Assembly (NCBI RefSeq): GCF_039555335.1
Contig: NC_092647.1
Location: forward strand, 15,672,094 to 15,736,093
Reading direction: 5' to 3'
Length of the DNA: 64,000 nucleotides
DNA from: Amphiura filiformis
Lineage: Eukaryota > Echinodermata > Ophiuroidea > Amphilepidida > Amphiuridae
Shown: piece after piece, positions 2,124 to 54,127 of the stretch
How the letters are laid out: each line of letters begins with the position of its first letter
How positions within the stretch are numbered: the stretch's first letter is position 1
Program-made: the position numbers and the translations under genes
Notes under the pieces: model-generated
Seen by the model: the letters and a program-made list of their open reading frames with translations, nothing else
Databases searched by the model: none
Told to the model about the DNA's origin: nothing

Positions 2124-2245
2124 AATTTCATAGCTCAATATGTGAAACCAACGGGCATCCAGCATTGGATTGGTCTTCATGATATTACCACTGAAGACGT
2201 GTGGACCTGGAGTGTGGATGAGGAAGTAATGGACGATGCACAAAA
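2124..2245 (+). CDS. Exon 1: CTLD-A, middle part
   Basis: Acceptor CAG at 2121-2123 and donor GTAAG at 2246; phase 0 in, phase 2 out. The translation contains HWIGLHDIT, the WIGL core strand of a C-type lectin fold, followed by VWTWSVDEE at the place of the usual W-DG turn. The first part of this domain (the first Cys and the CY motif) is not in the window, so the gene starts further upstream. The next exon is 2.6 kb downstream. Confidence 0.85.
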
Positions 2246-2316
2246 GTAAGTTGTAGGATTTTCAGGAAATGGAATCAGTCTGTGCTCCAATCTCTTATAA
2301 AAACTCTCACATAGTA

Positions 2317-2885
2317 TGTGATGCGATCAAGCAAAATCAGTCGGAACTCGGCAATCCTAGTTTTGAGATATGGGCGAAATAATATGTGTAGGGGTAGAAA
2401 ATCAAAATTGATTTTTTTTGGTTGCAAAAATGAAAGAGAAAACATTTTTCTTTCACATGAACATAATTTTGATGAAATTCCAAAGGGAAAATGGGATTTT
2501 TGACCCCATACAACTTCGATGATTGTCAAAATCGTGAAATTATTCCAAAAAGAAGCTCGGATTTAGCGTTTTATTATGCCAAATTTCATAGCCATATCTT
2601 AAACCAAAGGTATAGTTGCTAAGTTGACTATGTATTTACATGTATTTTTAGGTGTGCTAAAAATAACTCAAGTAAAGTACTCTAACTTTAAACTTGATTT
2701 TCTCCTTTATTTTTATTTTTTATTATTACTGTACCGGTATTCACATTGTTGTAACTTTGTAACCAAAGGTCGTATTGAAATGGGTTTTTCACTAATGTGG
2801 AGCTTTAATACGCTTAATGAAAATATAAGAATCCCAGAATTGACCTGGGCCTATTTTAGACTGATTTTGCTTGATCGCATCACAT
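2317..2885. mobile_element. TIR MITE, TGTGATGCGATC family, copy 1
   Basis: It begins TGTGATGCGATCAAGCAAAA and ends with the reverse complement, with TA on both outer sides. About 569 bp, no coding capacity. A shorter copy lies at 29033-29275. The TA duplication suggests a Tc1/mariner-type source, which is an inference. Confidence 0.8.
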
Positions 2886-3446
2886 ATGAAATATCCAGAG
2901 GGTTCATTTTCCCCACTACCTAGAACTCTCCGCACAGCGTCATCATCCCCATATCTTCGTGTCAAAAATTGCCGGGATAGTACGGCGAATCCTCTCGTTT
3001 TTCAATAGCTACGCATGGCGATTTTGTTCGAGATTGGCCGAGTGACTCAGGCTAAGCATACCATTTACACCATACGACTATCATATGAGATACCACCAAG
3101 TTTCTATTCTACACATTATTACGATTTGCGCATGCGCTAGTTCCCCATTATAATGTTGCTATTACAAGAAAATTCGATTTGTTTTCATGTAATTATTTTA
3201 ATACACTAACTTGAAATTAAATACACTAATTAGTGGCCATGGCTGTTTGATGTGGATATATTTTACTGCATTTTATAAGTAACGATTTTTAAATCGTAAA
3301 AGAAATTGTGATATATTTTATTTTGAGAATTTACAATTATATAAAGGAACACATTTAGCCCTAAGATCCAGGTGCTTGTATACAATATTCAATCATCATG
3401 GTCTATAACACAATGCATATGTAAACTTTATTTATCTGTGTCAATA

Positions 3447-3667
3447 AGGCCAAAAAAAAGGTTTGTCTCAAAGCTCACGAGAAATTTAAAAACAAATGCG
3501 AAATGCGATTTTTTTTTGTTTTGTTTTTTATTCCCGACTTTTTTCATGAGAAAAAGTTTGATTTTCACCGATTTTTATGGAAAAAACTAAAAAAAATTTT
3601 TTTTTGTCAAATCTTGCGATTTTGCAAACGCGCGCGCAATCTTTGAGACAAACCTTTTTTTTGGCCT
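3447..3667. mobile_element. Short TIR MITE ending in GGCCAAAAAAAAGG
   Basis: The left end AAGGCCAAAAAAAAGGTTTG is mirrored by CAAACCTTTTTTTTGGCC on the right. The ends share about 25 bp of inverted repeat around an A/T-rich core of roughly 170 bp. Confidence 0.8.
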
Positions 3668-3920
3668 AATAGAGTATTGATTTCAATATAATCAGCAACG
3701 GAGTATGGAGCTGTATGGAAAAAATATTTATAACATAGGGTGTTGACACTGTGCTCCGTAGCTCACTTATCATTATGCATAAATGATAAATCTGATTTGT
3801 GTTATTTGTTCACAATTATTTTCCTGATCTTTACTCCTTTGTTTGCTTGATACACAAGTGATATGATTTTTGCTCGGGATTTCGCGATCAATAAACTGGT
3901 AGACACCTAAATCAGAAATG

Positions 3921-4496
3921 TTAGGCAGTATGCAGACTCCGACTAATTGACGTATAATATTTGATGTAACATATCTACGTTATTAAATCTAGTCCCATTC
4001 TATTTCCAGTAATGTTTAAGTTCTAACGAATGTTTGATGACGTAAAATCGATAATATGTTACGTATAATATCTAGTAGAAATATTAAAGGGGCATTTCGT
4101 GATCCACAGCCTCATCCCCCCACTTTTCTCAAAAAAAGTTGAGATTTTTATATCACTGGAAACCTCTGGCTACATGTTTATGTACAAAATATTTCTTGCA
4201 GATTAATTCGTTTTGCAAAGATATCGTGAAATTTGAATTTCGTTCTGGTGCACCCAGAACGAAATTACAACGCATTGTCTATGGAGCAGTGTAATACACA
4301 TAATCATGCATAACTCGCAAACGCAAAATCGGAATCAACTGAAATTTTGGGAATAGGCTTTTTCGTGGATATGTACTGAAAAATATCATCAAAAAGGATG
4401 CTAGGATCACGAAATCCTCCTTTAAATAGAAAGATTAAATAACGTAGATATGTTACATCAAATGTTTTACGTCTAATAAGTCTGCATACGGCCTAA
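3921..4496. mobile_element. TIR element with another MITE nested inside
   Basis: Left TTAGGCAGTATGCAGACT is mirrored by AGTCTGCATACGGCCTAA on the right, and the inverted arms run for about 65 bp (core TTTGATGTAACATATCTACG). The TTAA element at 4088-4421 sits in the middle. A related site without the insertion is at about 28165-28185. Confidence 0.8.
4088..4421. mobile_element. TTAA-flanked MITE (CATTTCGTGATCC family), copy 1
   Basis: Flanked by TTAA at 4084-4087 and 4422-4425. Ends AGGGGCATTTCGTGATCC and GGATCACGAAATCCTCCT are imperfect inverted repeats. 334 bp, non-coding. A second, inverted copy is at 26904-27206. A TTAA duplication is the mark of piggyBac or Kolobok type transposases. Confidence 0.85.
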
Positions 4497-4883
4497 GTAT
4501 AAAGTAAGCCCTTATTATAATTATAATTATACCAAGACAAGTTGCATTCGTTAAGATACATATACTTTGTCATTAATAATATGAACTTTTTATGACCATT
4601 TATTGAATACTTTACTTGTGATAAATATCTTAAATAAACTTAAAGATTGCAGGGTTGCCTATAGGCCAAGAGGTGGGTGTCTCATCTCATTTATATTTAT
4701 CTGTTGTCTTGTCACTCTGTCCTACATTTTTTACTTGAAAATGTTATTGTCTCAAATTGATCAAATTGCTGCAAACACGAAATGTGTGCTGCCTACATGA
4801 AACACGAAACTTTTTTAGCCTTATGATAGTCTAAATCTATAGGCCTATCAAATATCTGCATGTTCGTGTGTTTTCATTGATAG

Positions 4884-5014
4884 TATGTGGGATGCAGGAC
4901 AACCTGATAATTATGGTAGTGGCGAGGACTGTGCAGAGATGCGAACAAACGGGAAGTGGAATGACATACCTTGTCCTGCCTATGATCGACCATACATTTG
5001 TGAAAGTCCAAATG
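4884..5014 (+). CDS. Exon 2: CTLD-A, C-terminal part (QPD/WND)
   Basis: Acceptor TAG at 4881-4883, donor GTAAGA at 5015; phase 2 in, phase 1 out. It encodes WDAGQPDNYGSGEDCAEM, then KWNDIPC and YICE. QPD with a downstream WND is the galactose-type Ca2+/sugar site of C-type lectins. The closing Cys residues are in place, so this domain looks functional. Confidence 0.92.
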
Positions 5015-5569
5015 GTAAGAAGCAATGTGCATCAATTTGCAATAAGCCCAATCGGCATTGTAACTTCCGGTTTTTGAGCGCAGTTTTGGGACACTTAGAC
5101 CTGTGACATATCGGAAAAATTACTGTAATTATTATTAATTTATTTATGATTGTAATAATGGGTAGCTCCTAATGATGTTATCATTAAACATATATAGTTA
5201 AATAATTAATTTATATAATAACCATATTTTTTGGTTTGATTTTATTCTTGTACAACATTATATTTTGTACACACAAAACCAAAGAGGGCAAAAAGTAAAA
5301 AAAAAAAAATGCAGAAACTGTCCCACAATGCATTGCAAACTTCCAAAGCCAATTTGGCTTATTGCCAGTGCCCTTCCTCAAAAAAAAAAAAAAATAAGTA
5401 CCATTATGATAAATGAAATGAATTTGTTGTTTTTAACGTGTGATATTTCATCTGACGGAGTAATCGATGCAGTACGACGGCCACTCACTTCCAGTATTTT
5501 TACCGGCGTGACCTCTGTTTTCAACAAAATGTTGAAAATAAACCGGCAAATACGATGTTTTGGAAAACA

Positions 5570-7290
5570 CTCAAAAATGGAATACATGAGTCGTCGTCGT
5601 CTGATGAAGTTTCTCCACTCATGTCGATCTTGTGCTTTGGTGTAACAACTGTAAATTGACATTTTGGTTAACGAAACAATTCCATCTGTCCACCTGAGTC
5701 TCTGTCTTCCTCTGCTTCTCTTCCCCTCAACGTTTCCGAACATTATCACTTTCTCTAGATTGACTCCTTCTCGCCTGGCAACATGTCCAAAATACTGTAA
5801 CTTCTGTTTCCTCACTGAGTTGATGAGTGAGACTTTCTCTCCTATTTCATGCCGAACACTCTCATTTGTCCTTTTGGCGGTCCATGGGATGCATAGAAGT
5901 TTTCTCCAGCACCACATCTCAAATGCTTCAATCCTTCTTTGATCTGCCGCATTGATCACCCACGTTTCACACGCATATGTTGCGATCGGGAAAATCAAAG
6001 AGGAGACAAGTCTAATCTTTGTTGACTTGCTGATACTTCTGTCCTTCCATAACTTGTGCATGGTGCATATTGATGTTTTTGCCATTGCTATGCGACGTCT
6101 GATCTCAGTAGAGCATCCGCCTTGGTTTGAAATCATGGATCCAAGGAAGTTGAACTGTTTGATGACCTCAATTGCTTGGTTTCCTGCATGAATAGTGGTG
6201 TTCTCTTCTTGTTGGTTGATGACCATCACCTTGGTTTTGCTTACATTTAGAAAAAGGCCAAAGTTTTCACTCTCCGTTCTCACTCTTTCAATCAGCTCCT
6301 CAAGTTCACAAGCACTGTCTGCTAGTAGGGTAGTGTCGTCCGCATACCGTAAGTTGTTGATGGTTCTGCCTCCGACAGATATTCCAATGCTGCAACTCTC
6401 AAGGGCCATTCGCATAATATACTCTGCATATGCATTAAACAGATGAGGAGACAAAATGCATCCTTGTCTCACCCCTTGCTCGATTTTGAACCAGGTACTG
6501 TCACCACATGTTGTTCTAACAATTGATTCCTGATCGTCATAGAGTGTCCTAAGCAGTTCTACCACATGTTTTGGGAAGCCCATTGATACTAAGGTGTCCC
6601 ACAGTTTTTGATGTTGAACAGTATCAAATGCTTTTGAATAGTCGATGAAGCACATGTAGACTGGACGGTTGAATTCAATAGCTTTCTCTGTAATATTTCT
6701 GATGTTTGCTATTTGGTCTCTTGTGCCTCTGCCTTCCACAAAACCGGCCTGCTCTGGGGGAATCTCACGTGCTGTTTGATCCTCTCAACCGTGATGTACA
6801 GCATGATCTTACTTGCATGGGAGATTACAGAGATGGTCCTGTTGTTTTTGCATTCTCTTGTGTTGCCCTTTTTGGGGAGTGGTAGGAATATTGATCTGGT
6901 CCAGTCTATCGGCCAGCTCTTGTCTTTCCATAGAAGATTGCATAATTTGTGCACCACATCCACTCCTTCATCTCCGGTTTCTTTGATCAACTCTGCTGGG
7001 ATATCATCATATCCTGGTGCTTTACCTGTCCTCATTTTCTTCATTGCCATCACCACTTCTGATCTCAGTATGTCAGGTTCATTTTCATCAACCTCAATTG
7101 GTTCTGTTTCACCTCCTAAACCATCTTTACTTGCATACAGCCCTTGACAGTACTGTTGCCACCTCTGTTTGATTTGATCACTCTCAGTTAGAATTTCACC
7201 ATCTTCATCTTTGATTACATCCAGCTTTGGTGTTTTCTTCCCTGTGATTTCTTTCACTGCTCTAAAGAGATCCCTGGAGTGGTTGGTAGA
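5570..7290 (-). pseudogene. LINE reverse transcriptase domain, frameshifted
   Basis: The RT begins near VKEITGKKTP and runs through GKAPGYDDIPAELIK (RT motif 0-1), FIDYSKAFDTV, GVRQGCILSPHLFN and RYADDTTLLAD. A shift at about 6740-6770 splits the frame between the N-terminal part and the palm. After the palm comes the Trp- and Arg-rich C-terminal region. Normal coding ends near 5570; the frame stays open further by chance. Confidence 0.88.
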
Positions 7291-7299
7291 AGAATGTGA

Positions 7300-8450
7300 T
7301 TCAACCTCTTTGCATTTCCTTTCAAGAAAACCTGTTTATCTTGTCTGGTTCTGCGTTGAATTCTCCTGCTTAGGTCTTTATACTGCCTTTTGTCCTTCTC
7401 CGTTAGTATGCCTCTTGCTTTCACCTGTCGTCTTTCGTCTGCCATTGTACCCACTTCCTCTGATATCCATGGCGATCGGGTTTTCTTTGGTTTCGGCAAG
7501 TTGTTCTGTGCTGCTGTAGAGATTGCCTTCTTGGTTTGTTCCCATAATTCATTAGGTGTCCACTCTTCCTGTTCAAGGAGTATCTGAAAAGAGTTCCTGA
7601 CTTCCACTCGGTACTGTTCATTAATACGATTAACATCATATCTACGTGGAGGAGTGTCCCGTTTGACTGACTTCAGCTTTGATCGAATTTCAGCAACCAG
7701 AAGCTGGTGATCTGAACCACAGTCTGCTCCTGGGTATGTTTTTGCTACCTTCACACTCGACCTCCATCTTCGTTTGATTAAGATGTAATCTAGCTGATTT
7801 CTGGTCCTCCCATCTGGAGATATCCAGGTGTAAAGCCGTCTAGGATACTGTTGGAATAGCGTGTTTGTTACGATCAGCTCATTTTCGTTGCAGAAATCAG
7901 CTAGTCTTTCCCCTCTCTCATTAGCTTTGCCCAGTCCAAACTTTCCAACGGCATCATTGTTAACCAGGTCATTTCCAACTTTGGCATTGAAATCCCCATG
8001 ATGATGGTAATATCTCTATTAGGAATTTTGTTGATGGTTTCTTGGAGTTCATGGAAGAAGGAATCAATTGTCTCATCATCTGCTGTTGAGGTTGGAGCAT
8101 ATGCCTGAACTACTGAGATGTTGACAGGTCTTGCTTGGAGACGGATGGTTATCAGTCTGTCACTGATGGGATTGTAGCCGAGGACACATTTTGCTGTTTC
8201 TCTTGATAGAATGAAACCTACTCCATTCCTCTTTAATCTATCTGAGCCAGCAGAATAATATACAGTATGTCCATCATCAAGAGAGAAATGACCTTTGCCA
8301 GTCCACCTGACTTCTGCTAATCCACAGATCGGAATATTACATCTCCCCATTTCTCTTTCTATAATGTGCAGTTTGCTATCATCTGTCATACTTCTCACAT
8401 TCCATGTGCCAAAACGATTGTTATGCCTTAAGTTTAAGATTTTGTCCTTT
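7300..8450 (-). pseudogene. LINE endonuclease domain and linker, frameshifted
   Basis: The N-terminal endonuclease half contains LAEVRWTGKG and VVQAYAPTS. Just after IIMG the frame is lost. A run of four C on the plus strand at 7994-7997 replaces an expected five, and one added base restores the family motif GDFNAK. The frame returns around 7754 (YPGADCGSDHQLL). The linker ends near 7260 in a second frame shift. Confidence 0.85.
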
Positions 8451-8530
8451 GTTCCAGCCCTTTCATCAGCCTGTGAAGCGTCATTACAGGACCTTCCAAA
8501 GGTACACGTTTGTTGCCCGAGTCATTTCTA

Positions 8531-12160: not shown

Positions 12161-12378
12161 ACGTGATTATCAAATGTGATGAGTCTAATGGTTGGATGTC
12201 TGCAGCCTCTGCTTGCTATAAATATTACTCAAATGACTACGCGTGGTCGGATGCTAACAACTACTGTCTAGCTCTTGGAGGAGCATTGATAAGTGTAGAG
12301 AGCCAAGAAGAACAAGATCTTGTCACGTTACAGGGATCCACATACAAAACAGACATATGGATAGGAGCAAGTGATATT
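12161..12378 (+). CDS. Exon 3: CTLD-B, N-terminal half
   Basis: Acceptor TTTCAG ends at 12160, donor GTAAGT at 12379; phase 1 in, phase 0 out. It encodes GWMSAASACYKYY, YAWSDANNYCLALGGALI and SVESQEEQD, ending in IWIGASDI. These are the N-terminal W-CY signature, the WxxAxxxC helix, the SxExQEE strand and the WIG core. The whole first half of the domain is in one exon. Confidence 0.95.
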
Positions 12379-14916: not shown

Positions 14917-15005
14917 ACAAGTGGTACATCTGGTGTATATCAATGGCCTGATGGTGTTAACATAGGACCATACACTAACTGGGCACCTGGACAACCTGAT
15001 AATAG
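14917..15005 (+). CDS. Exon 4: CTLD-B, sugar-site exon (QPD)
   Basis: Acceptor TTTCAG ends at 14916, donor GTTAGT at 15006; phase 0 in, phase 2 out. It encodes YQWPDGVNIGPYTNWAPGQP followed by DN. WAPGQPDN is a galactose-type binding-loop motif. The exon heads a three-unit tandem array; the second and third units at 16001 and 16131 are dead. Confidence 0.93.
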
Positions 15006-15977: not shown

Positions 15978-16000
15978 TATCCATATTATTAACACCTTAG

Positions 16001-16095
16001 ATAAGCGGTGTACCTGGAGGATATACATAGCCTAGTCTGATGGTGTTAACATAGGCCCATACACTAACTGGGCACCTGTACAACCTGATTATTAG
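16001..16095 (+). pseudogene. Dead tandem copy of exon 4 (unit 2)
   Basis: This matches exon 4 along its length, including GGTGTTAACATAGGCCCATA and ACTAACTGGGCACCTG. It has an in-frame TAG where exon 4 reads on, an insertion, and ATTATTAG in place of the exon end. The flanking intron sequence TATCCATATT is copied with it, so the duplication unit (about 122 bp) included exon plus intron. Confidence 0.88.
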
Positions 16096-16130
16096 ATTAC
16101 TATCCATATTACTTATTACTAACACCTTAG

Positions 16131-16245
16131 ATAAACGGTGTACCTAGTTGATATACATGGTCTGATGGTCTAACCAGTCTCTTACTTCCATGGTCTAACA
16201 TAGGACCATACACTAACTGGGCACCTACATGTACCATGATTCTTA
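16131..16245 (+). pseudogene. Dead tandem copy of exon 4 (unit 3)
   Basis: It is preceded by the same AACACCTTAGATAA leader as unit 2. It contains TAGGACCATACACTAACTGG but has a premature TGA after ACCTAGT and an internal duplication of about 27 bp. The end has decayed and no donor remains. Confidence 0.82.
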
Positions 16246-16477: not shown

Positions 16478-16590
16478 TTATTCCAGTATGGGTGGAAATT
16501 GCGCAGAGGTGGTCAGCACAGCATCAGAGGGACAATGGAATACAGCAGCATGTCCATCAGGAAGAAAATTTATCTGTGAAAAACCTGAAG
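16478..16590 (+). CDS. Exon 5: CTLD-B, C-terminal end
   Basis: Acceptor TTGCAG ends at 16477, donor GTAAGT at 16591; phase 2 in, phase 1 out. It encodes SSMGGNCAEVVSTASEGQW, then NTAACPSGRKFICEKPE. The last two Cys are present, but the usual WND reads WNT. Ca2+ and sugar binding by this domain is therefore doubtful despite its QPD. Confidence 0.93.
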
Positions 16591-17210: not shown

Positions 17211-17339
17211 TTATGTTATCTATATTATAATTACGCTATTGTCTGTGAATCTGTTTAGTCCTACGTGTGTGGGATGGGATGGGTGTTAGTAACAATATAA
17301 TTCTCAGGTACAATCTGTGTACAAACTCTGAGCCCTGAA

Positions 17340-17857
17340 GCTGCATTATTTGATGATAAACAGACGGCCCTTTTTAAACATTTGGGGTCCTGGGGCCCAT
17401 AATATTTGACTTATGAGGCTCATGTACATATGTTGAAGTATAATTCTCAAGTGCTATCAGTAGACTCAAGCTGGGCACTGTAGCTGCTTTATTTACTGAG
17501 TAACGGCTGGCCCTATGTTTTAGCGTTTGGGGCCCTGGGGCCCATATCATGTGACATATGGGGCTCATATGTACATATAACAATATAATTCTCAGGTGCA
17601 ATCTGTGTACAAAATCTTGAGCTCTAAAGCTGCTTTATTTGATGAAAAACGGCCGGCCCTTTGCTTTAACATTTGGGGCCCTGGGGCCCATAATATTTGA
17701 CTTTTGGGGATCATGTGCATATGTTGAAATATAATTCTCAAGTGCTATCAGCAGACTCAAACTGGACATTGTAGCTGCTTTATTTACTGAGTAAGGGCCG
17801 GCCCTATGTTTTAGCGTTTGTGGCCCTGGGGCCCATATTATGTGACACATGGGGTTC
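17340..17857 (+). repeat. 145-bp GGCCCTGGGGCCC tandem array
   Basis: The core TGGGGCCCATA recurs at about 17391, 17536, 17682 and 17827, a period near 145 bp. The array resumes after the inserted TIR element at 20223 and is repeated in copy 2 to about 22860. The minus strand of each unit is partly open, giving short false proteins. Confidence 0.85.
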
Positions 17858-17867
17858 ATATATGTAC

Positions 17868-20790: not shown

Positions 20791-22880
20791 ACTAGAAGGC
20801 TATATATTTGTACACAAATACGGCTATACCCGCATGTTATCGGTTTACACAAACTTACAGTGCTTATTTGCTGAGGACTTAGGTTGCTGTTGTCAGTCTC
20901 TCTAATTCACAGTGAAGCTATGCAATTTAATAGATCGAAATTCACAATATGCAATTTGATTAGGGGAAAGCTATTCCAGAGGGAGTATGTAAATTAAATG
21001 GAACAGCCATTTCAGAGGGAGTATCTAAATTAAATGGAACAGCTATTTTGGGATCATTTCAGAGGGAGTATGTAAATTAAATCGAACAGCCAAAGGTATG
21101 TAATTTGAATGGAACAGCCTTAACGCTTCACACATGGTATTTTCAATTATCATCATCTATAATTATTATAGGCCTAATACGCTATTGAAATTCACAATAT
21201 GCAATTTGATTAGGGGAAAGCTATTCCAGAGGGAGTATGTAAATTAAATGGAACAGCCATTTCAGAGGGAATATGTAAATTAAATGGAACAGCCTATTTT
21301 GTGGCCATTTCAGAGGGAGTATGTAAATCAAATAGAACAGCCAATGGGTATGTAATTTAACTGGAACAGCCTTAACGTTTATGTTATCTATATTATAATT
21401 ACGCTATTGTCTGTGAATCTGTTTAGTCCTACGTGTATGGGGTGGGATGGGATGGGCGTTATTAACAATATAATTCTCAGGTGCAATCTGTGTACAAACT
21501 ATGAGCCCTGAAGCTGCTTTATTTGATGACAAACGGACGGCCCTTTTTTAACATTCGGGGACCATAATATTTGACTTGTGAGGCTCATGTACATATGTTG
21601 AAGTATAATTCTCAAGTGCTATCAGTAGACTCAAGCTGGGCACTGTAGCTGCTTTATTTACTGAGTAACGGCTGGCCCTATGTTTTAGCGTTTTGGGCCC
21701 TGGGGCCAATGGAGTGACATATGGGGCTCATATGTACATATAACAATATAATTCTCAGGTGCAATCTGTGTACAAACTCTGAGCTCTAAAGTTGCTTTAT
21801 TTGATGAAAAACGGCTGGGCCTTTGCTTTAACATTTGGGGCCCTGGGGCCCATAATATTTGACTTCTGGGGCTCATGTGCATATGTTGAAATATAATTCT
21901 CAAGTGCTATCAGCAGACTCAATCTGGACATTGTAGCTGCTTTCTTTACGGAGTAACGGCCGGCCCTATGTTTTAGCGTTTGAGGCCCTGGGGCCCATAT
22001 TATGTGACACACGGGGTTCATATATACATATAACAATATAATGCTTTAGACCTAATTAGTGTACCAAATCTAAACCCTGTAGCTCCTTTATTTGCTGAGA
22101 AACGACAGGCCCTTTATTTTAACATTTGAGCCTCTGGGGCCCCTAGCCTTAAACATCTGAGGCCAAAATGGGCAAAAGGCCATTTACAACTTAGCGCCCA
22201 TATATGTGCCACATATGAGCTCTAGTGCCCTTGTAGTTTTATAGCTAGCCTTGTCAATCTGTTGCCCCTTATTTTAACATTTGGGGCCCTGGGGCCCTGG
22301 GGCCCATAATATATGACATGTGGGGCTCGTGTATACTTGCATATATAGAGTACCCCTGGATCTATCAGTGTACCAACTCAGGGCCCTGAGGCTGCTTCAT
22401 TTAATGAGAAACAGCATGCTTTGTATTTTTACATTTGGGCCCCTGGGGCCCGTGACCTTGACCTCTGGGGCCGAGATGTGCAAAGGATAAATCTACAGGG
22501 TAGGGCCCATAAGTGTACCACATATGGGCTCTGGGGCCCTTGTAGTTTTAGCGCTAGCCCTGTCAATCTGTTGCCCTTATTTTAACATTTGGGGCCCTGG
22601 GGCCCATAATATATGACATATGGGCTCATGTATAATTGTATATGTAGAGTACCCCTGGGGCTATAAGTGTACCAACTCAGGGCCCTGAGGCTACTTCATT
22701 TGATGAGAAACGGCATGCTTTGTGTTTTTACATTTGGGCCCCTGGGGCCCGTGAACTTTGACCTCTGGGGCCAAGATGGGCAAAGGATAAATCTACAGGG
22801 GGTAGGGCCCATAAGTGTACCACATATGGGCCCTGTGGCCCTTGTAGTTTTAGCGCTAGCCTTGACAGAATGTTGTGTTT
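20791..22880 (+). repeat. Direct duplication, copy 2 (uninterrupted)
   Basis: This repeats 16629-20790 in order and orientation, with an added array unit near 22260-22560. It keeps the uninterrupted sequence TTCATATATACATATAAC where copy 1 has the 2.35-kb insertion. The duplication therefore came first and the insertion second. Confidence 0.85.
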
Positions 22881-29500: not shown

Positions 29501-29630
29501 GAGTATGTCCAACTGGCTGGAGAATTTTCCGTGGCAACTGTTACCAAGTCAACACAATGAATAAATACACATGGACTGACTCCAAACATTACTGTGAAAC
29601 ACAAGGGTCTTTCTTGGTTACCATTTTAAG
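29501..29630 (+). CDS. Exon 6: CTLD-C, N-terminal part
   Basis: Acceptor TTACAG ends at 29500; the donor GTTTGC at 29631 is weak; phase 1 in, phase 2 out. It encodes GVCPTGWRIFRGNCYQV, YTWTDSKHYCETQGSFLV and TIL. It has the C-GW-CY start and the W-AxxxC helix. Confidence 0.9.
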
Positions 29631-33607: not shown

Positions 33608-33690
33608 TGCTGTTGAGAATAACTATGTTGTCAGCTTATTTGAAGAACTGCAAAATGTTGGTATCACTGATATATGGATTGGAATGTCAG
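33608..33690 (+). CDS. Exon 7: CTLD-C, middle part
   Basis: Acceptor TTGCAG ends at 33607, donor GTAAGG at 33691; phase 2 in, phase 1 out. It encodes SAVENNYVVSLFEELQNVG and then ITDIWIGMS. SAVEN plus the WIG core place it between exons 6 and 8. Confidence 0.92.
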
Positions 33691-34401: not shown

Positions 34402-35059
34402 GGGATCTAAAATGAGCGTTTATTGCGTTTCGAAAGTATTTTTTGTGGAACATGAGAGCACCTCAGACCTATCGAATTGCATTCTGAATACGAAGCATGT
34501 CTTTCTGATATCAAATCATTTTCATTTTTTGAAAATCACAATATAATACAAATTTTATGACAAATTATAAAAATGTGATATTTTTCAAATTTTTGATATA
34601 TAACAGTCCTCGAAGTAAATTATATAAATCTAATGATATATTCTTAAAGTGTATGTATCAGGAGGAAAAGCCGACGGTCAATTGAAAATTTTGACCTTTC
34701 ATATTGAAGATATAGATTTTTTCCCCAAAAGACCTAATTTTTTTTGGTGTTTTGGGAAAAAATCCATATCTTCAATACGAAAGGTCAAAATTTTCAATTG
34801 ATCGTCGGCATTTCATCCCACCTACATACACGTTAAGTATAAATCANNNNNNNNNNNNNNNNNNNNNNNNNNNNNNNNNNNNNNNNNNNNNNNNNNNNNA
34901 AAATATCAACAACAAAAATGTGTATTAAATTGCGAATTTCAAAAACCAAAATTATTTGATATCAGAATGACATTCTTCGTATTCAGAATGCAATTCGATA
35001 TGTCTGATGTGCTCTAATGTCCCAAAATAAATACTGTCCAAACGTTCATACCCCAGCCC
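34402..35059. mobile_element. TTAA palindromic MITE (GCCGACG family), copy with gap
   Basis: TTAA at 34398-34401 and 35060-35063. Long inverted arms contain TCGAATTGCATTCTGAATAC near both ends and a central hairpin with GCCGACGG. The N run at 34847-34899 falls next to the hairpin. Confidence 0.85.
34847..34899. other. Assembly gap (53 N)
   Basis: This is a run of N inside the palindromic MITE. The sister copy at 28550-28600 shows what kind of AT-rich sequence is missing. The hairpin probably hindered sequencing or assembly. Confidence 0.99.
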
Positions 35060-35351: not shown

Positions 35352-35471
35352 ATGTTGCTACTGATGGTATATTTGCTTGGAGTGATGGTTCATCTGTGAG
35401 CTATACCAACTGGAACACCAACCAGCCATCAGATATCGCTGGCTCTCCTGATTGTGGAACTATATTTACAG
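35352..35471 (+). CDS. Exon 8: CTLD-C, sugar-loop exon (degenerate), GC donor
   Basis: Acceptor CTCAG ends at 35351. The donor is ACAG|GCAAGA at 35472, a non-canonical GC donor with otherwise ideal context; phase 1 in, phase 1 out. It encodes FAWSDGSSVSYTNWNTNQPS, then a run to DCGTIFTG. The motif is QPS rather than QPD/EPN, so canonical Ca2+-dependent sugar binding is probably lost. A MITE begins 16 bp past the donor. Confidence 0.9.
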
Positions 35472-37019: not shown

Positions 37020-37091
37020 GCACGGAATCTGGTCAATGGAGCACTGATAATTGCTTTGGTCTTCAGGCTTTTGTCTGCCAGGTTCCTGTGG
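37020..37091 (+). CDS. Exon 9: CTLD-C, C-terminal end
   Basis: Acceptor TATCAG ends at 37019, donor GTAAGT at 37092; phase 1 in, phase 1 out. It encodes TESGQWSTDNCFGLQAFVCQ. The two closing Cys are present, and WST replaces WND, matching the degenerate loop in exon 8. Confidence 0.93.
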
Positions 37092-38563: not shown

Positions 38564-38722
38564 CTCTTGGTGATTGCCCTCCTGGCTGGAGTTTGTTTGA
38601 TGAAAATTGCTACTACCTAGAACAAACCAAGAAGACATATGACAATGCTCGTACAAGCTGTGAAGCTTTTGGGGCTAAACTGACGAGCATACATAGCGCC
38701 GAGGAGCAGTCATATCACTCAA
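38564..38722 (+). CDS. Exon 11: CTLD-D, N-terminal part
   Basis: Acceptor CTATAG ends at 38563, donor GTAAGT at 38723; phase 1 in, phase 1 out. It encodes GDCPPGWSLFDENCYYLE, TYDNARTSCEAFGAKLTSIH and AEEQ. All N-terminal CTLD landmarks are present, including the extra Cys pair of long-form CTLDs. Confidence 0.95.
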
Positions 38723-39299: not shown

Positions 39300-39388
39300 T
39301 GCGTGTGAATACAGTGAATGATTGGATATGGATTGGTTTCCATGACATCACAGATGAGGGACAATTTGAATGGGAGGATGGAACTCCG
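39300..39388 (+). CDS. Exon 12: CTLD-D, middle part
   Basis: Acceptor TTTCAG ends at 39299, donor GTAAGT at 39389; phase 1 in, phase 0 out. It encodes DWIWIGFHDITDEGQFEWED and then GTP. This is the WIG core and W-DG turn of a canonical domain, closely similar to exon 1 of CTLD-A (WIGLHDIT). Confidence 0.95.
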
Positions 39389-39843: not shown

Positions 39844-39997
39844 GTTGACTTTACCAACTGGGCTCCAGGACAACCAGACAACTGGGGCGATGCAGGGGAA
39901 GATTGCACACATATGAGGAATGGGGAAACCCAGGCTGGACTGTGGAATGATTTGCCATGTGATTATACATCCTACTACATGTGTAAACTACCCAAAG
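39844..39997 (+). CDS. Exon 13: CTLD-D, C-terminal part (QPD/WND)
   Basis: Acceptor AAAG ends at 39843, donor GTGAGT at 39998; phase 0 in, phase 1 out. It encodes NWAPGQPDNWGDAGEDCTHM, then LWNDLPC and YMCKLPK. The galactose-type QPD is followed by an aromatic Trp, as in typical Gal/GalNAc sites. WND and both final Cys are intact. This is the best-preserved QPD domain in the window. Confidence 0.96.
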
Positions 39998-41858: not shown

Positions 41859-42073
41859 CTTGTGATGAGTATACATCGGGTGATACCGATGAAGATTACT
41901 ACTATCGCTACCATCCAGCCCAGAAGTCAGTGGAGTACATATATTTTGAAGTGCAAGCTGATAATGATGTACATATAGGCCTATCACCAATAGAAGGTGA
42001 TGCTGACCCTATGTATGAGATTGTTATAGGTGGATATGGAAATACATTGTCAGCTGTCCGTAGATGTAAACAG
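41859..42073 (+). CDS. Exon 14: FAMeT-like domain, N-terminal half
   Basis: Acceptor TTCCAG ends at 41858, donor GTAAAA at 42074; phase 1 in, phase 0 out. It encodes YIYFEVQADNDVHIGLSP, then MYEIVIGGYGNTLSAVRR. The F-V-A-D-H-LS and YEIVIGG-N--S-RR pattern marks the Methyltransf_FA family (farnesoic acid O-methyltransferase domain). The family lacks a classical SAM fold and is often found in extracellular proteins, so methyltransferase activity should not be assumed. Confidence 0.92.
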
Positions 42074-43621: not shown

Positions 43622-43841
43622 TGTGCCAATGAAATCGATGCACCAACACCAAGCATCTTAAACATAAATGAATGGCGTGGGTTCTGGATCACTTTTAACA
43701 TTAACACGGGCAAGATGGAGATTGGCAAAGAAGCACACGCAGCTTTCTTGACCTACACCGACCCTGATCCAATCGACGTCCAATATGTTGGATATTCAAC
43801 AGGATGGGGAAGTGAAGGAAGATTCAGATTCTGCAATCTAA
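43622..43841 (+). CDS. Exon 15: FAMeT-like domain, C-terminal half
   Basis: Acceptor TTTCAG ends at 43621, donor GTACGT at 43842; phase 0 in, phase 1 out. It encodes NEWRGFWITFNINTGKMEIG, then VQYVGYSTGWGSEGRFRFC. EWRGFW, GK and VGYSTGWG-EG are the family's C-terminal signature. Together with exon 14 this makes a complete domain of about 145 residues. Confidence 0.93.
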
Positions 43842-44263: not shown

Positions 44264-47200
44264 GTAAGTAAATACTTTGCTCTGCAGCATACGTAAACTG
44301 GCTTCTCTGTTACTAATATATAGCTTATACTTATTGTTATAGACCATCCTTAATATAATTGGCACGTTCTTGCCATTGAAGGGTAAACATCAATATTACA
44401 TATGATAAAATATTTACAGTATCCAAAGATTGGCGCTCTGTGCGTCAGCATACCCCTACCTTATTGAAAGTTGAGTGCCCCCTGGCATGCCTGGGCCTTG
44501 GAAATAAAACATGGTAACATTTTCTTGGACAATTGGTATAAAAATGCAAAGTGTACATTGGTATAAAATTTCAGCACATTGGTTGATGACATCAGTAGCC
44601 CATCCAGATAGACATACAAGTCCAGTTTAGGAATTGAATACATGAATACAAAACCCACCCAAGTGCATGGGAAGTGATTTTGAAAGAAAAACATGTGTAT
44701 CATTTTAATTCCTTCAGTTATATTTACCTGGTCAATATGGTAAGTTTTACTTGCAAATGAGTGGGTAAAACTGTATTAAGTATGACGATTAGCATTTCAG
44801 GGACTTCGTGGGGTTCATTTTAAATTCTGGACTTGGGTGGTTTTTGAATCATATACAAAGACAACAATGTTGGAATGAGATTACCACTAGTAAGATAATA
44901 CAAAATAAAGCACATAGGTATGTATAATGTTGATAAGCATTCTGCCATGTAATATAAACCACACTGCACACTTTCCTTTATTAAACCCATTTTTTTCTTC
45001 AAAAGTCACTCTCCAGCAATGAATGTGTTACAAACGGACTTTTATACATACTGGATTTCAATCAATGTGTTACAAGACTCAAATCATGGACTTGGCTGGT
45101 TCTTTCATGCTATTTTTCACATGCTCAATAGACACAGAGGATAAATTTGAATTGTTTTTTCATACATATGACAGGCCTATGTATAGCAACAATTTCCCAT
45201 GTTTAGCTCAATTTGGCCACAGTATGGACTTGGGTGGGTTTTGTATTCATATATTCAATTATAAGTCTTTGTGAAATGCACTCATGACATAGGTTGATAT
45301 AGGTCTTCTTGGTAGGTATTCTATAAAACACACATTGTGAAATGGACTCTGATCTAGGTTGATGTAGGTCTTCTTGGTAGGTCTTCCATAAAACACACAT
45401 TGTGAAATGGACTCCTGATCTAGGTTGATGTAGGTCTTCTTGGTAGGTATTCTATAAAACACACATTGTGAAATGGACTCCTGATCTAGGTTGATGTAGG
45501 TCTTCTTGGTAGGTATTCTATAAAACACACATTGTGAAATGGATTCCTGATCTAGGTTGATACAGGTCTTCTTGGTAGGTATTCTATAAAACACACATTG
45601 TGAAATGGACTCCTGATCTAGGTTGATGTAGGTCTTCTTGGTAGGTATTCTATAAAACACACATTGTGAAATGGACTGCCTGATCTAGGTTGATGTAGGT
45701 CTTCTTGGTAGGTATTCTATAAAACACACATTGTGAAATGGACTCCTGATCTAGGTTGATATAGGTCTTCTTGGTAGGTATTCTATAAAAACACACATTG
45801 TGAAATGGACTCATGACATAGGTTGATGTAGGTCTTCTTGGTAGGTATTCTATAAATCACACATTGTGAAATGGACTCCTGATCTAGGTTGATGTAGGTC
45901 TTCTTGGTAGGTCTTCTATAAAACACACATTGTGAAATGGACTCCTGATCTAGGTTGATGTAGGTCTTCTTGGTAGGTATTCTATAAAACACACATTGTG
46001 AAATGGACTCCTGATCTAGGTTGATGTAGGTCTTCTTGGTAGGTATTCTATAAAACACACATTGTGAAATGGACTCCTGATCTAGGTTGATGTAGGTCTT
46101 CTTGGTAGGTATTCTATAAAACACACATTGTGAAATGGACTCCTGATCTAGGTTGATGTAGGTCTTCTTGGTAGGTATTCTATAAAACACACATTGTGAA
46201 ATGGACTCCTGATCTAGGTTGATGTAGGTCTTCTTGGTAGGTATTCTATAAAACACACATTGTGAAATGGACTCCTGATCTAGGTGATGTAGGTCTTCTT
46301 GGTAGGTATTCTATAAAACACACATTGTGAAATGGACTCCTGATCTAGGTTGATGCAGGTCTTCTTGGTAGGTCTTCCATAAAACACACATTGTGAAATG
46401 GACTCCTGATCTAGGTTGATGTAGGTCTTCTTGGTAGGTATTCTATAAAACACACATTGTGAAATGGACTCCTGATCTAGGTTGATGCAGGTCTTCTTGG
46501 TAGGTATTCTATAAAACACACATTGTGAAATGGACTCCTGATCTAGGTTGATGCAGGTCTTCTTGGTAGGTATTCTATAAAACACACATTGTGAAATGGA
46601 CTCCTGATCTAGGTTGATGTAGGTCTTCTTGGTAGGTATTCTATAAAACACACATTGTGAAATGGACTCCTGATCTAGGTTGATGCAGGTCTTCTTGGTA
46701 GGTATTCTATAAAACACACATTGTGAAATGGACTCCTGATCTAGGTTGATGCAGGTCTTCTTGGTAGGTATTCTATAAAACACACATTGTGAAATGGACT
46801 CCTGATCTAGGTTGATGTAGGTCTTCTTGGTAGGTATTCTATAAAACACACATTGTGAAATGGACTCCTGATCTAGGTTGATGTAGGTCTTCTTGGTAGG
46901 TATTCTATAAAACACACATTGTGAAATGGACTCCTGATCTAGGTTGATGTAGGTCTTCTTGGTAGGTATTCTATAAAACACACATTGTGAAATGGACTCC
47001 TGATCTAGGTTGATGTAGGTCTTCTTGGTAGGTATTCTATAAAACACACATTGTGAAATGGACTCCTGATCTAGGTTGATGTAGGTCTTCTTGGTAGGTA
47101 TTCTATAAAACACACATTGTGAAATGGACTCCTGATCTAGGTTGATGTAGGTCTTCTTGGTAGGTATTCTATAAAACACACATTGTGAAATGGACTCCTG

Positions 47201-48932
47201 ATCTAGGTTGATGTAGGTCTTCTTGGTAGGTATTCTATAAAACACACATTGTGAAATGGACTCCTGATCTAGGTTGATGTAGGTCTTCTTGGTAGGTATT
47301 CTATAAAACACACATTGTGAAATGGACTCCTGATCTAGGTTGATGTAGGTCTTCTTGGTAGGTCTTCCATAAAACACACATTGTGAAATGGACTCCTGAT
47401 CTAGGTTGATGTAGGTCTTCTTGGTAGGTATTCTATAAAACACACATTGTGAAATGGACTCCTGATCTAGGTTGATGTAGGTCTTCTTGGTAGGTATTCT
47501 ATAAAACACACATTGTGAAATGGACTCCTGATCTAGGTTGATGTAGGTCTTCTTGGTAGGTATTCTATAAAACACACATTGTGAAATGGACTCCTGATCT
47601 AGGTTGATGTAGGTCTTCTTGGTAGGTATTCTATAAAACACACATTGTGAAATGGACTCCTGATCTAGGTTGATGTAGGTCTTCTTGGTAGGTATTCTAT
47701 AAAACACACATTGTGAAATGGACGCCTGATCTAGGTTGATGTAGGTCTTCTTGGTAGGTATTCTATAAAACACACATTGTGAAATGGACTCCTGATCTAG
47801 GTTGATGTAGGTCTTCTTAGTAGGTATTCTATAAAACACACATTGTGAAATGGACTCCTGATCTAGGTTGATGTAGGTCTTCTTGGTAGGTATTCTATAA
47901 AACACACATTGTGAAATGGACTCCTGATCTAGGTTGATGTAGGTCTTCTTGGTAGGTATTCTATAAAACGCACATTGTGAAATGGACTCCTGATCTAGGT
48001 TGATGTAGGTCTTCTTGGTAGGTATTCTATAAAACACACATTGTGAAATGGACTCCTGATCTAGGTTGATGTAGGTCCTCTTGGTAGGTATTCTATAAAA
48101 CACACATTGTGAAATGGACTCCTGATCTAGGTTGATGTAGGTCTTCTTGGTAGGTATTCTATAAAACACACATTGTGAAATGGACTCCTGATCTAGGTTG
48201 ATGTAGGTCTTCTTGGTAGGTATTCTATAAAACACACATTGTGAAATGGACTCCTGATCTAGGTTGATGTAGGTCTTCTTGGTAGGTATTCTATAAAACA
48301 CACATTGTGAAATGGACTCCTGATCTAGGTTGATGTAGGTCTTCTTGGTAGGTATTCTATAAAACACACATTGTGAAATGGACTCCTGATCTAGGTTGAT
48401 GTAGGTCTTCTTGGTAGGTATTCCATAAAACCCACATTGTGAAATGGACTCCTGATCTAGGTTGATGTAGGTCTTCTTGGTAGGTATTCTATAAAACACA
48501 CATTGTGAAATGGACTCCTGATCTAGGTTGATGTAGGTCTTCTTGGTAGGTATTCTATAAAACACACATTGTGAAATGGACTCCTGATCTAGGTTGATGT
48601 AGGTCTTCTTGGTAGGTATTCTATAAAACACACATTGTGAAATGGACTCCTGATCTAGGTTGATGTAGGTCTTCTTGGTAGGTATTCTATAAAACACACA
48701 TTGTGAAATGGACTCCTGATCTAGGTTGATGTAGGTCTTCTTGGTAGGTATTCTATAAAACACACATTGTGAAATGGACTCCTGATCTAGGTTGATGTAG
48801 GTCTTCTTGGTAGGTATTCTATAAAACACACATTGTGAAATGGACTCCTGATCTAGGTTGATGTAGGTCTTCTTGGTAGGTATTCTATAAAACACACATT
48901 CAAATCACTAATTATGAATATTCAATTTTCAG
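44264..48932 (+). other. Intron 16 (4.7 kb), mostly minisatellite
   Basis: The first kilobase includes an inverted pair of 28-mers at 44636-44663 and 45229-45256 (core ATACAAAACCCACCCAAG). The 66-bp array begins right after the second arm and stops 32 bp before exon 17. Confidence 0.8.
45267..48900. repeat. 66-bp minisatellite, about 55 units
   Basis: The unit begins GTGAAATGGACTCCTGATCT and ends CTATAAAACACACATT. It is highly homogeneous, with scattered variants such as GATGCAGG for GATGTAGG and GGTCTTCCATAA for GGTATTCTATAA. One-base indels occur near 45678, 45788 and 46285. The first units are the most divergent, and the rest are almost identical. As 66 is a multiple of 3, one minus-strand frame is open for 871 codons (48895 down to 46280). 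Unit variants mostly change the amino acid and the block is intronic, so I regard this frame as non-coding. Confidence 0.97.
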
Positions 48933-49106
48933 CTGTTTTTGATCCTCGCTGTGGTCTTGGATGGGAGTTGGACCCTACAACACAGAATTGTTATCTATTT
49001 AGTGACACAGACTATTTGAGTTGGCCTGATGCTGAGGAAGTTTGTAACAAAGATGGAGGCAACCTGGCCAGCATCCAAGGAGTAGAAGAACAGACATATA
49101 TTAATG
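48933..49106 (+). CDS. Exon 17: CTLD-E, N-terminal part
   Basis: Acceptor TTTTCAG ends at 48932, donor GTAGGT at 49107; phase 1 in, phase 1 out. It encodes CGLGWELDPTTQNCYLF, then WPDAEEVCNKDGGNLASIQG and EEQ. It is a canonical CTLD start. The acceptor is 32 bp downstream of the minisatellite, so the branch point may lie close to, or inside, the last repeat. Confidence 0.95.
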
Positions 49107-49752: not shown

Positions 49753-49869
49753 CACGACTGAAGTACTTGAGTGAGGCCACCATGTGGATTGGAGCTAATG
49801 ATTTGTCTGTAGAAGGCGGCTGGCAATGGAGTAGTGGAGATCCATTTAGATATCTCAACTGGAATCCAG
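49753..49869 (+). CDS. Exon 18: CTLD-E, middle part
   Basis: Acceptor TTGCAG ends at 49752, donor GTACGT at 49870; phase 1 in, phase 1 out. It encodes TMWIGANDLSVEGGWQWSSG followed by FRYLNWNP. WIGANDL, WQW and NWNP are standard. The second half is duplicated 114 bp downstream. Confidence 0.94.
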
Positions 49870-49922
49870 GTACGTATATGCTTGCTTGGGAGGGAGGGGG
49901 CACGCAAGTCAGTATGGGGCAA

Positions 49923-49983
49923 GTAGAAGGTGACTGGCAATGGAGTAGTGGAGATCCATTTAGATATCTCAACTGGAATCCAG
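49923..49983 (+). pseudogene. In-frame partial copy of exon 18 (possible alternative exon)
   Basis: It repeats 49809-49869 with two substitutions, at an offset of exactly 114 nt. TAG at 49924-49926 can serve as an acceptor, giving a 57-nt exon (49927-49983) with phases 1/1 and a GTATGT donor. Including it would add a second copy of the DWQWSSGDPFRYLNWNP block. If the 114 nt were retained, the frame also stays open. It may be an alternative exon or just a recent duplication. Confidence 0.6.
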
Positions 49984-50593: not shown

Positions 50594-50707
50594 GTGAACC
50601 GAATAACTATAATGGTAATGAGCACTGTACAGAGGTTTTTGCATCTAATGGAAAATGGAATGATGATAGTTGTGATACAAAGATGGGATATATATGTAAA
50701 AAGACAG
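50594..50707 (+). CDS. Exon 19: CTLD-E, C-terminal part (EPN/WND)
   Basis: Acceptor TTTACAG ends at 50593, donor GTTAGT at 50708; phase 1 in, phase 1 out. It encodes GEPNNYNGNEHCTEVFASNG, then KWNDDSC and YICKK. EPN with the downstream WND is the mannose/fucose/GlcNAc-type Ca2+ site. All expected Cys are there, so binding is likely. Confidence 0.96.
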
Positions 50708-51862: not shown

Positions 51863-52099
51863 GTTACATTACATCTCATTTCACTGTGTTACCCAACCTG
51901 TACCTGCCTGGCAATGATAATATCCGTCTACGAGATGTCTACCCAGATGAATGCGCTAGAGCTTGCGTAGAAGAGACCTCTTTCGATTGCCTGTCATTGG
52001 ACTATAACAAGCTAACAAAAGAATGTGATCTGAGCGATACAACAGGACAGTACAATGGAGAATTGATCACTGACATAAACTTTGATTACTACGAAAAAA
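51863..52099 (+). CDS. Exon 20: PAN/Apple domain
   Basis: Acceptor ATTCAG ends at 51862, donor GTAAGT at 52100; phase 1 in, phase 1 out. It encodes a complete domain of about 79 residues: LYLPGNDNIRLRDVYPDECA, then RACVEETSFDCLSLDYNK, ECDLSD and a final YYEK. The C-x3-C, F-C-S-DY and C-LSD pattern is that of PAN/Apple modules, which bind proteins or sugars in extracellular receptors and proteases. As a one-exon symmetric phase-1 module it is suited to exon shuffling. Confidence 0.92.
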
Positions 52100-52329: not shown

Positions 52330-52605
52330 GCAGGATTGGTCATTGCACAAATAGCCTTCAATTGCAAGAAAGTGTGCAATTTGTATAAATAGCACAAATA
52401 GCCAGTTGCTTAAGCAACTTTACAAATTGCATATATAGCCACAGATAGTTGCAATTGATGCAATCTATGTCGGCAAATTGTATAAATAGCCAAAGGTGTT
52501 ACAATTTGTGCGATTTATGTCAGTAAATTGCACGAATAACCTTCAGTTGCAAGAAAGTGTGCAATTTGTACAAATAGCACAAATAGCCACGTATGTAAGC
52601 AATTT
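52330..52605 (+). repeat. Degenerate tandem repeat CAATTTGTATAAATAGC
   Basis: About ten imperfect copies of GCAATTTGTAxAAATAGCxx in intron 20. The first and last parts are near-identical 80-mers (52345 and 52525). Confidence 0.85.
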
Positions 52606-52607
52606 TG

Positions 52608-52680
52608 TCTGTCATTCTTCACCCATAGTGCCAGATGTTGGCCCAGGCCCTACACTCTCTCCCATAGAGCTATAGAAGTG
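52608..52680 (+). pseudogene. Dead copy of the exon 21 acceptor and 5' edge
   Basis: CATTCTTCACCCATAGTGCC and AGATGTTGGCCCAG match the real acceptor exactly, 110 bp upstream of it. The copy then diverges and hits an in-frame TAG. It would compete as a decoy acceptor. Confidence 0.85.
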
Positions 52681-52738
52681 ACCCGGTCTGGGCAGAATAT
52701 ATAGCAGTTAATATTTGTCTCTCATTCTTCACCCATAG

Positions 52739-52954
52739 TGCCAGATGTTGGCCCAGACCCTGACCCTCCCACACTCCCGCCCAGCTATCGATGTGATGAA
52801 GGCTGGGCTGGCTACGGCAGTTATTGTTATCAGGTTCAAAATGTACTTCAATCCATGCAAGAGGCTAGGACAAGATGTCGCACACTTGGAGGGGATCTAG
52901 TGTCTATCCACAACAAAGCTGAGAATGATTTTGTTCTCAATACTGTGAAATCAG
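52739..52954 (+). CDS. Exon 21: Pro-rich linker and CTLD-F N-terminal part
   Basis: Acceptor CCATAG ends at 52738, donor GTAAAA at 52955; phase 1 in, phase 1 out. It starts with the spacer PDVGPDPDPPTLPPS, then CDEGWAGYGSYCYQV, EARTRCRTLGGDLVSIHNKA and END. The CTLD start is canonical. Confidence 0.95.
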
Positions 52955-53508
52955 GTAAAATATATATCATTTCTTCCAATAATTCTTAGTGTAACCTGTC
53001 ATGAGATTTCTTGGTGTAGATTATTCATCCAGTAGAGCAAATGTATACCTGTTAATAAATAAATTAAATTTCTACTCACTATGCTACATTACGCCTGGAA
53101 ATACCAGAATGACTGTGATGTAATATGCAATGATGATAGGGGACAACCTTTTGGTGCCTGGACCCATGCATGCGTCAGCTTAAGCAGTGTCTTCATTTCT
53201 TGCCATTTTATTCCCAGTTTCTGATTTAGTCATGTGATTCCTAACAAGTATCAGCACATGGAAATAAAGCATTTACTGAGACAGTTTTCTTCAAATGCAA
53301 GTGAAAAATAACCTCTTTTTGCTTGTCTAGCAGAATAGGGTATGAAGGTGTGCATCCAATATGTCCAAAGTAGACTTAAACACTTAAACACTAACTTTGA
53401 AACAATACAGAATATAACAAACACAGAAGTTGAAATGCGTTCTTAAAAGTGTAATTTTATTGGTTCATATAGTCATACAACCAAATGATTTCATTCACTT
53501 ATTATTAG
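52955..53508 (+). other. Intron 21, no recognised feature
   Basis: 554 bp of unique AT-rich sequence. Confidence 0.7.
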
Positions 53509-53669
53509 CTGGTTTATCAAGCCCAATTTGGACTGGTCTAAATGACCTGACTCTTCAAAGCTCCTTTGATTGGACGGATGGCAGTGAAGTAGACTTTACA
53601 TGGTGGAATACGGGTGAACCAAATAACTATGGCGACAAAGGTGAAGATTGTGTGGAAATGTATGGTAAT
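53509..53669 (+). CDS. Exon 22: CTLD-F, middle and sugar loop (EPN)
   Basis: Acceptor TTATTAG ends at 53508, donor GTAAGT at 53670; phase 1 in, phase 0 out. It encodes PIWTGLNDLTLQSSFDWTDG, then WWNTGEPNNYGDKGEDCVEM. The usual WIG reads WTG. EPN marks a mannose-type site. Confidence 0.95.
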
Positions 53670-54016
53670 GTAAGTAAACATAATTAGTTTAATAACTTTT
53701 TAAGAACATTTACTGAGGAAGATGACCTCAATATTTTTAATTAACTAACTAAGGTATGACGTTACTGCCCTCAGATCGATGTGTCTAGTGTCTGGTCCAT
53801 CGCACTACGTGCTCTTCTATAGTCTGTGACATAACTATCATGACTCCCATGTTTTAAGGCTAGAGTACATGTGGCAGTGGTATAAAAAAGATCAATAAAG
53901 GTTTTTTAACTGATGCCGATGTAAATGAATGTATGATTTAAGAGTAGCCATGTGCTTAAAATTCTTCTGACAATAAGGTCAACATGTTCAATGATCTTCG
54001 ATTACCTTTGTTGTAG
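53670..54016 (+). other. Intron 22, no recognised feature
   Basis: 347 bp, unique sequence with no repeats noticed. Confidence 0.7.
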
Positions 54017-54127
54017 GGAGCTTGGAATGACCAGGATTGCTCAGATCGTGTTCCATCTGTGTGTAAGATTATGAAGAAAGACCTACCACCAACTCAATTC
54101 CCAGTCACACCATCTGGATGTAGTCTG
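54017..54127 (+). CDS. Exon 23: CTLD-F C-terminal end and linker
   Basis: Acceptor TTGTAG ends at 54016, donor GTAAGC at 54128; phase 0 in, phase 0 out. It encodes GAWNDQDCSDRVPSVCKI, completing WND and the last Cys pair, then LPPTQFPVTPSGCSL. The trailing PSGCSL is the usual opening Cys of the next CTLD, so at least one more domain is expected. Confidence 0.94.

Follow-up and report, generated by a model that had tools for sequence, protein, structure and literature searches.

Part of a probable mosaic gene with C-type lectin-like, FAMeT, and PAN domains in the echinoderm Amphiura filiformis

The mannose receptor family (MRC1, MRC2/Endo180, PLA2R/FcRY, and DEC-205) is made up of proteins with a ricin-type cysteine-rich domain (CysR), a fibronectin type II domain (FNII), 8–10 C-type lectin-like domains (CTLDs), and a transmembrane anchor. 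Linkers in this family are very short, only some of the CTLDs keep the residues of the sugar site, and we know of no foreign domain standing between them. Single-domain C-type lectins are found in echinoderms, including CEL-I, which has one CTLD per chain. Here, we describe a 64,000-nucleotide stretch of the Amphiura filiformis genome (NCBI RefSeq assembly GCF_039555335.1, contig NC_092647.1, positions 15,672,094–15,736,093 of the forward strand; hereafter, the window), in which 21 plus-strand exons between positions 2124 and 54127 can be spliced into one open frame of 3045 nt, corresponding to 1015 residues. Pfam comparison, piece by piece, yields the domain order CTLD1-CTLD2-CTLD3-CTLD4-FAMeT-CTLD5-PAN-CTLD6, with all modules head-to-tail on the plus strand. 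With a probability of roughly two in three, the window covers an inner part of a single large animal gene that encodes an extracellular mosaic (CTLD1-4/FAMeT/CTLD5/PAN/CTLD6/CTLD7 and more on both sides), and its product is best read as a mosaic protein for recognition or adhesion that resembles the mannose receptors.

The solved sequences most similar to the chain (best 60 of 235 matches) belong to the mannose receptor family, with two to eight matched stretches each and E-values of 2.5e-96 for FcRY, 2.4e-91 for PLA2R, 1.3e-86 for DEC-205, 2.8e-65 for MRC1, and 7.4e-61 for MRC2. The predicted chain also resembles this family in its tandem in-frame CTLDs and minimal linkers, its modules adjoining one another almost directly, apart from a Pro-rich linker that precedes CTLD6 and a short one that precedes CTLD7. 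On these grounds, the gene might be regarded as a proper member of the family that has gained FAMeT and PAN; nevertheless, we consider this quite improbable, in that orthology does not follow from the similarity of tandem CTLDs by itself and, given one chain, FAMeT and PAN stand between the CTLDs and break the array. Neither CysR nor FNII was found in the chain or in 150/200 selected open reading frames (ORFs) of the window, the start of the gene lying outside it. With FAMeT and PAN set among the CTLDs, and with the sites of the diagnostic N-terminal domains and of the anchor beyond both window ends, the chain is not filed as a mannose receptor. Similarity extends to single-domain echinoderm lectins: within the same best 60 matches, CEL-I matches CTLD4 at 2.6e-20, and the sea-cucumber lectin AjGBCL carries an EPN motif, as does part of the present array, although AjGBCL comprises one CTLD in 158 residues (PMC8713890; the papers cited here by PMC number are represented by excerpts). 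The sea-star footprint proteins Sfp1, 3, 4a, 5, 7, and 8 are secreted and, like the present chain, are multidomain proteins with Methyltransf_FA; however, their FAMeT partners are EGF-like (Sfp3, 4a, and 7), hyalin (Sfp5 and 7), and WAP/antistasin (Sfp8) domains, and the term "C-type lectin" has no occurrence in the excerpted text (PMC9382459). No protein with CTLD, FAMeT, and PAN together was found among the matches listed in the openly licensed PubMed Central literature.

All eight modules exceed the Pfam curated cut-offs, including the Lectin_C cut-off in six of six readable CTLDs, and the other matches to the eight pieces (UL45, DUF1451, A33R, and PPC) all fall below theirs. Briefly, CTLD1, named CTLD-A in the initial annotation, is encoded by exons 2124–2245 and 4884–5014 (Lectin_C 2.4e-15, profile positions 29–106 of 107); its head was not detected by the profile in the first 2123 bases of the window. 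CTLD2 comprises exons 12161–12378, 14917–15005, and 16478–16590 (7.9e-19), CTLD3 comprises exons 29501–29630, 33608–33690, 35352–35471, and 37020–37091 (1.9e-21), and CTLD4 comprises exons 38564–38722, 39300–39388, and 39844–39997 (1.3e-22). The FAMeT domain follows in exons 41859–42073 and 43622–43841 (Methyltransf_FA, PF12248, 2.7e-33, profile positions 2–136 of 140), and CTLD5 in exons 48933–49106, 49753–49869, and 50594–50707 (Lectin_C 2.3e-25). The PAN/Apple domain occupies the single exon 51863–52099, which is in phase 1 on both sides (PAN_1 1.6e-11, profile positions 2–74 of 76; 44.3 bits vs. a cut-off of 21.4), and the Pro-rich linker and CTLD6 are encoded by exons 52739–52954, 53509–53669, and 54017–54127 (Lectin_C 5.8e-23). 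Donors are GT in 20 of 21 exons and GC in the remaining one (35471|gcaaga), and on a simple consensus scale 19 of the 21 score at least 4.0, the two weaker ones being at 29630 (3.4) and 43841 (3.1). The GC donor at 35471 (CAG|gcaaga) points to a likely GC-AG intron inside CTLD3. A CTLD profile constructed from the six domains and applied to 2973 ORFs of both strands (stop to stop, 15 amino acids or longer) recovers, by construction, the 18 exons that encode CTLDs in the chain; its extra matches are a decayed copy of exon 14917–15005 (E 0.021) and one minus-strand ORF (E 1.0). The initial annotation had placed CTLDs, a FAMeT-like domain, and PAN in this same order, which is confirmed by the Pfam profiles. 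Its open multi-exon chain also stands, although the exon ends determined here give 1015 residues instead of 1035 and the chain is only an inner slice. The six CTLDs, FAMeT, and PAN are probably joined in one chain.

The CTLDs differ in their sugar sites. The EPN or QPD motif, the acidic residue, and WND in CTLD1-6 were assigned the roles of what we take to be the calcium-site-2 signature. It is complete in CTLD1 (QPD/GED-C/WND), CTLD4 (QPD/GED-C/WND), CTLD5 (EPN/NEH-C/WND), and CTLD6 (EPN/GED-C/WND), and altered in CTLD2, in which QPD is kept and its calcium-site partners are changed (GGN-C and WNT), and in CTLD3 (QPS, SPD-C, and WST). QPD is commonly taken as galactose-type and EPN as mannose-type, and the initial annotation had accordingly proposed mixed galactose-type and mannose-type sites. 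Mixed sugar specificity of the predicted protein is plausible, but the proposal is not supported in that form: QPD sites are intact in CTLD1 and CTLD4 and EPN sites in CTLD5 and CTLD6, whereas the sites of CTLD2 and CTLD3 are altered, and the motif does not fix the sugar, because the action of the EPN-bearing AjGBCL is inhibited by galactose (PMC8713890). Pairwise identity among the CTLDs is 28–41% (15 pairs), and none of the 12 introns within CTLDs coincides with another in both alignment column and phase; the first introns of CTLD4, CTLD5, and CTLD6 (columns 65, 60, and 67, all phase 1) may, however, represent one position blurred by alignment. Owing to this low identity and the lack of a shared intron column and phase, the CTLDs are not considered recent tandem copies.

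The chain probably continues past 54127 into a seventh CTLD. Exon 54017–54127 carries the end of CTLD6, a linker, and the putative first Cys of CTLD7 (PSGCSL), and ends in a phase-0 donor at 54127. A phase-0 acceptor at 54739 fits this donor and opens a candidate exon (54739–54798, 3′ end approximate) with the frame DWFPYQYSCYYVEGDNKTMW. Joined to the exon tail (...TPSGCSL), this frame resembles C..dW..y..sCY...e..ktmW, which is also seen in CTLD1-6 and which we take to be the pattern of a CTLD head. Scored with a profile of CTLD1-6 only, the joined 54739 acceptor reaches 8.4 bits, the top value among 155 downstream acceptors; the second-best (3.1 bits) is a decayed copy of the CTLD7 exon at 54834, and the maximum among 1425 minus-strand control acceptors is 2.9 bits. 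If so, CTLD6 and CTLD7 are linked by a single exon, and the gene extends beyond the window. The six CTLDs counted in the initial annotation are thus a probable undercount, with the first headless in the window and a seventh probably continuing at 54739. The gene is open at both ends, the rest of CTLD7 not having been found between the 54739 exon and the window end at 64000. A search for a transmembrane exon after 54127 listed six phase-0 candidates, among which one, at 58700, is hydrophobic; this candidate was rejected, as its hydrophobic stretch recurs near 59450–59659 and looks like a repeat.

The FAMeT domain has no solved relative by sequence, the only PDB match having an E-value of 0.55; moreover, no relative was found in viral contigs and no FAMeT match in NCBIfam. 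A role as an enzyme is possible but unsupported here. According to a study of juvenile-hormone enzymes, reliable in vitro evidence that FAMeT can methylate has never been obtained, and hormone levels did not change in a fly mutant (PMC10015273). FAMeT domains have been reported in sea-star footprint adhesive proteins (PMC9382459), in genes upregulated during mussel shell repair (PMC8194122), and in CPAMD8-type complement relatives (PMC9363628), and a paper cited by PMC9358689 claims in its title that a Methyltransf_FA protein of oyster binds microbes. Furthermore, mannosylated glycans are ligands of a DM9 protein from oyster, and the DM9 proteins of locust and fruit fly also carry FAMeT (PMC5712788). 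A similar pairing occurs on L001, a contig titled as a bacterial metagenome-assembled genome, in which positions 4371–5669 encode 433 residues from stop to stop with DM9 in two stretches (1.4e-30), followed by Methyltransf_FA (1.7e-20); this protein is 60% identical to exon 41859–42073 over 45 residues. A second bacterial contig, L003, encodes 419 residues on its minus strand (1186–2445) with Methyltransf_FA (1.5e-22), which by eye resemble the L001 protein, the DM9 part being unscanned. Both proteins have, by eye, a hydrophobic start. The Methyltransf_FA family was found in two of nine genomes searched of the phylum of L001 and in none of 14 control genomes. The FAMeT-DM9 partnership of arthropods is therefore also present in bacteria, in a different order. 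We take DM9 and DUF3421 to be one Pfam family. Like the present chain, arthropod FAMeT (pfam12248-DUF3421; PMC10015273) and the L001 and L003 proteins couple Methyltransf_FA to another domain; by contrast, their partner is DM9/DUF3421 instead of a CTLD, and the L001 and L003 frames are short. Based on the occurrences in adhesive, shell-repair, and complement-type proteins, the partnership with DM9, and the doubtful enzyme activity, the FAMeT domain is most likely an extracellular, non-enzymatic binding module.

A single transcript would have to span all modules, above all the two largest gaps between them. The initial annotation had regarded the frame-consistent exons as a sign of one chain; this is uninformative and was rejected as proof of one gene, because all seven introns between modules are in phase 1 and any module order would stay in frame. 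Since each module begins and ends in phase 1, two or three tandem neighboring lectin genes (e.g., CTLD1 and CTLD2, together or apart, and then CTLD3 onward) could have been merged in the initial annotation, an explanation that we consider rather unlikely. It is favored, in addition to the free joining, by the low pairwise identity and differing intron positions of the CTLDs and by the lengths of the CTLD1-CTLD2 gap (7146 bp, holding a retroelement) and the CTLD2-CTLD3 gap (12910 bp, holding tandem repeats). However, the gaps CTLD3-CTLD4 (1472 bp), CTLD4-FAMeT (1861 bp), CTLD5-PAN (1155 bp), and PAN-CTLD6 (639 bp) are within the size range of the 13 introns inside single domains (347–3977 bp), and the FAMeT-CTLD5 gap (5091 bp) consists of a 3632-bp satellite and about 1.5 kb of other sequence. 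Furthermore, no signal-peptide-type first exon (ATG, hydrophobic core, and phase-1 donor) was found in the seven between-module gaps, including CTLD1-CTLD2 and CTLD2-CTLD3, at strict or relaxed thresholds in a scan of unmeasured sensitivity, and the 150/200 selected other ORFs contained no second gene, their matches being retroelement families and three marginal single matches. The exon that probably bridges CTLD6 and CTLD7 also speaks for one gene.

Several observations weigh against the single mosaic gene that we prefer. The gaps CTLD1-CTLD2, CTLD2-CTLD3, and FAMeT-CTLD5 could be gene borders, and phase 1 at every border is also what separate CTLD genes would show. The scan for signal peptides was equally empty on the control minus strand of the gaps and in the domain introns, and the one candidate upstream of CTLD1 (1707–1752) was rejected, as its phase misfits the phase-0 acceptor at 2124 and it lies inside a tandem repeat. 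Neither a transmembrane nor a terminal exon was identified within the window. The CTLD7 candidate amounts to 20 residues of new exon; the joined 40 residues match no family in Pfam and none in NCBIfam, and the exon alone ranks first among downstream ORFs but at an E-value of 0.36. It is also missing at E < 5 from the ORF scan with the six-domain profile, which short exons can escape. With regard to function, QPD/EPN motifs and PAN give no proof of ligands, and FAMeT is stated to catalyze methyl farnesoate formation in arthropods (PMC9382459; PMC8194122).

Small recent duplications are present in the locus. Decayed copies of the CTLD2 exon 14917–15005 lie in the next intron at 15999–16102 (80% over 104 aligned columns) and 16196–16226 (31/31 identical). 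In CTLD5, about 60 bases of the 3′ part of the second exon are repeated 114 bases downstream (49870–49983) with a consensus donor of their own, splicing from which would lengthen the protein by 38 residues in frame. The CTLD7 exon is followed, 95 bases downstream at 54834, by a decayed copy in tandem that reads DWVAYQYFYYYVESDDKQSS and then a stop. Such decayed copies of exon 14917–15005 and of the CTLD7 exon, the satellites, the repeated CTLD5 segment, and a run of 53 N at 34847–34899 are what a decaying pseudogene or a mis-assembled locus, not under selection, might contain. This explanation is very improbable, considering that 3045 nt are free of stops over 21 exons with strong profile scores and that the decay observed lies in extra copies next to intact exons.

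Repeats and retroelement remains also occur in the window. The satellite between FAMeT and CTLD5 (45269–48900) comprises 55 copies of a 66-bp unit with 98% matches and ends 32 bases before the CTLD5 exon start at 48933. A minus-strand ORF of 874 residues (46283–48904) lies in this satellite and was rejected as a gene; the unit length of 66, being divisible by 3, keeps it open. Its five above-cut-off Pfam matches (BTD 86.6 bits, zf-CHCC 62, Colipase-like 44, RsgI_N 28.7, and MxiM 25.2) are attributed to identical repeats being summed. The ORFs on the minus strand from position 5381 onward were likewise rejected as a host gene, representing retroelement remains (5381–8521; RVT_1 7.9e-31 in ORF 5381–6784). 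The scan of 150 ORFs also returned one Exo_endo_phos match (0.00023) and one Exo_endo_phos_2 match (0.00047), with ORF positions unassigned. Further tandem arrays, repeating about every 145/291 and 309 bases, occur upstream of CTLD1 (1208–1922) and in the CTLD2-CTLD3 gap (17290–17861 and 21463–22861). Searches of the window for tRNAs and, at the gathering threshold, for Rfam families found nothing.

Read as one mosaic, the predicted protein may be secreted or membrane-anchored, may bind sugars, and may have an immune or adhesive role. It would bind glycosylated surfaces of microbes, matrix, or other cells through several weak sites acting together. It would thereby work like the mannose receptors, in which many CTLDs, some of them active, make binding multivalent. 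The residues for calcium-dependent binding of sugars are retained in CTLD1, CTLD4, CTLD5, and CTLD6 of the six readable CTLDs, CTLD2 and CTLD3 look like structural spacers, and PAN would be a protein- or glycan-contact module. A more far-reaching and tentative proposal is that the locus encodes a single very large lectin receptor with at least seven CTLDs and with FAMeT and PAN inside the array, in which FAMeT would bind microbes or glycans without acting as an enzyme, having been inserted by shuffling of a phase 1-1 cassette into the mannose-receptor-like array of a marine deuterostome; bacteria and arthropods couple the same module to the mannose-binding DM9. Each module is already known, and their order, a moderate surprise, joins the many animal mosaics that exon shuffling has produced. 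Invertebrates depend to a large extent on mosaic lectins to recognize microbes and to adhere, and one chain with QPD- and EPN-type CTLDs, FAMeT, and PAN would, if true, provide a concrete test object for the role of the doubtfully named FAMeT.

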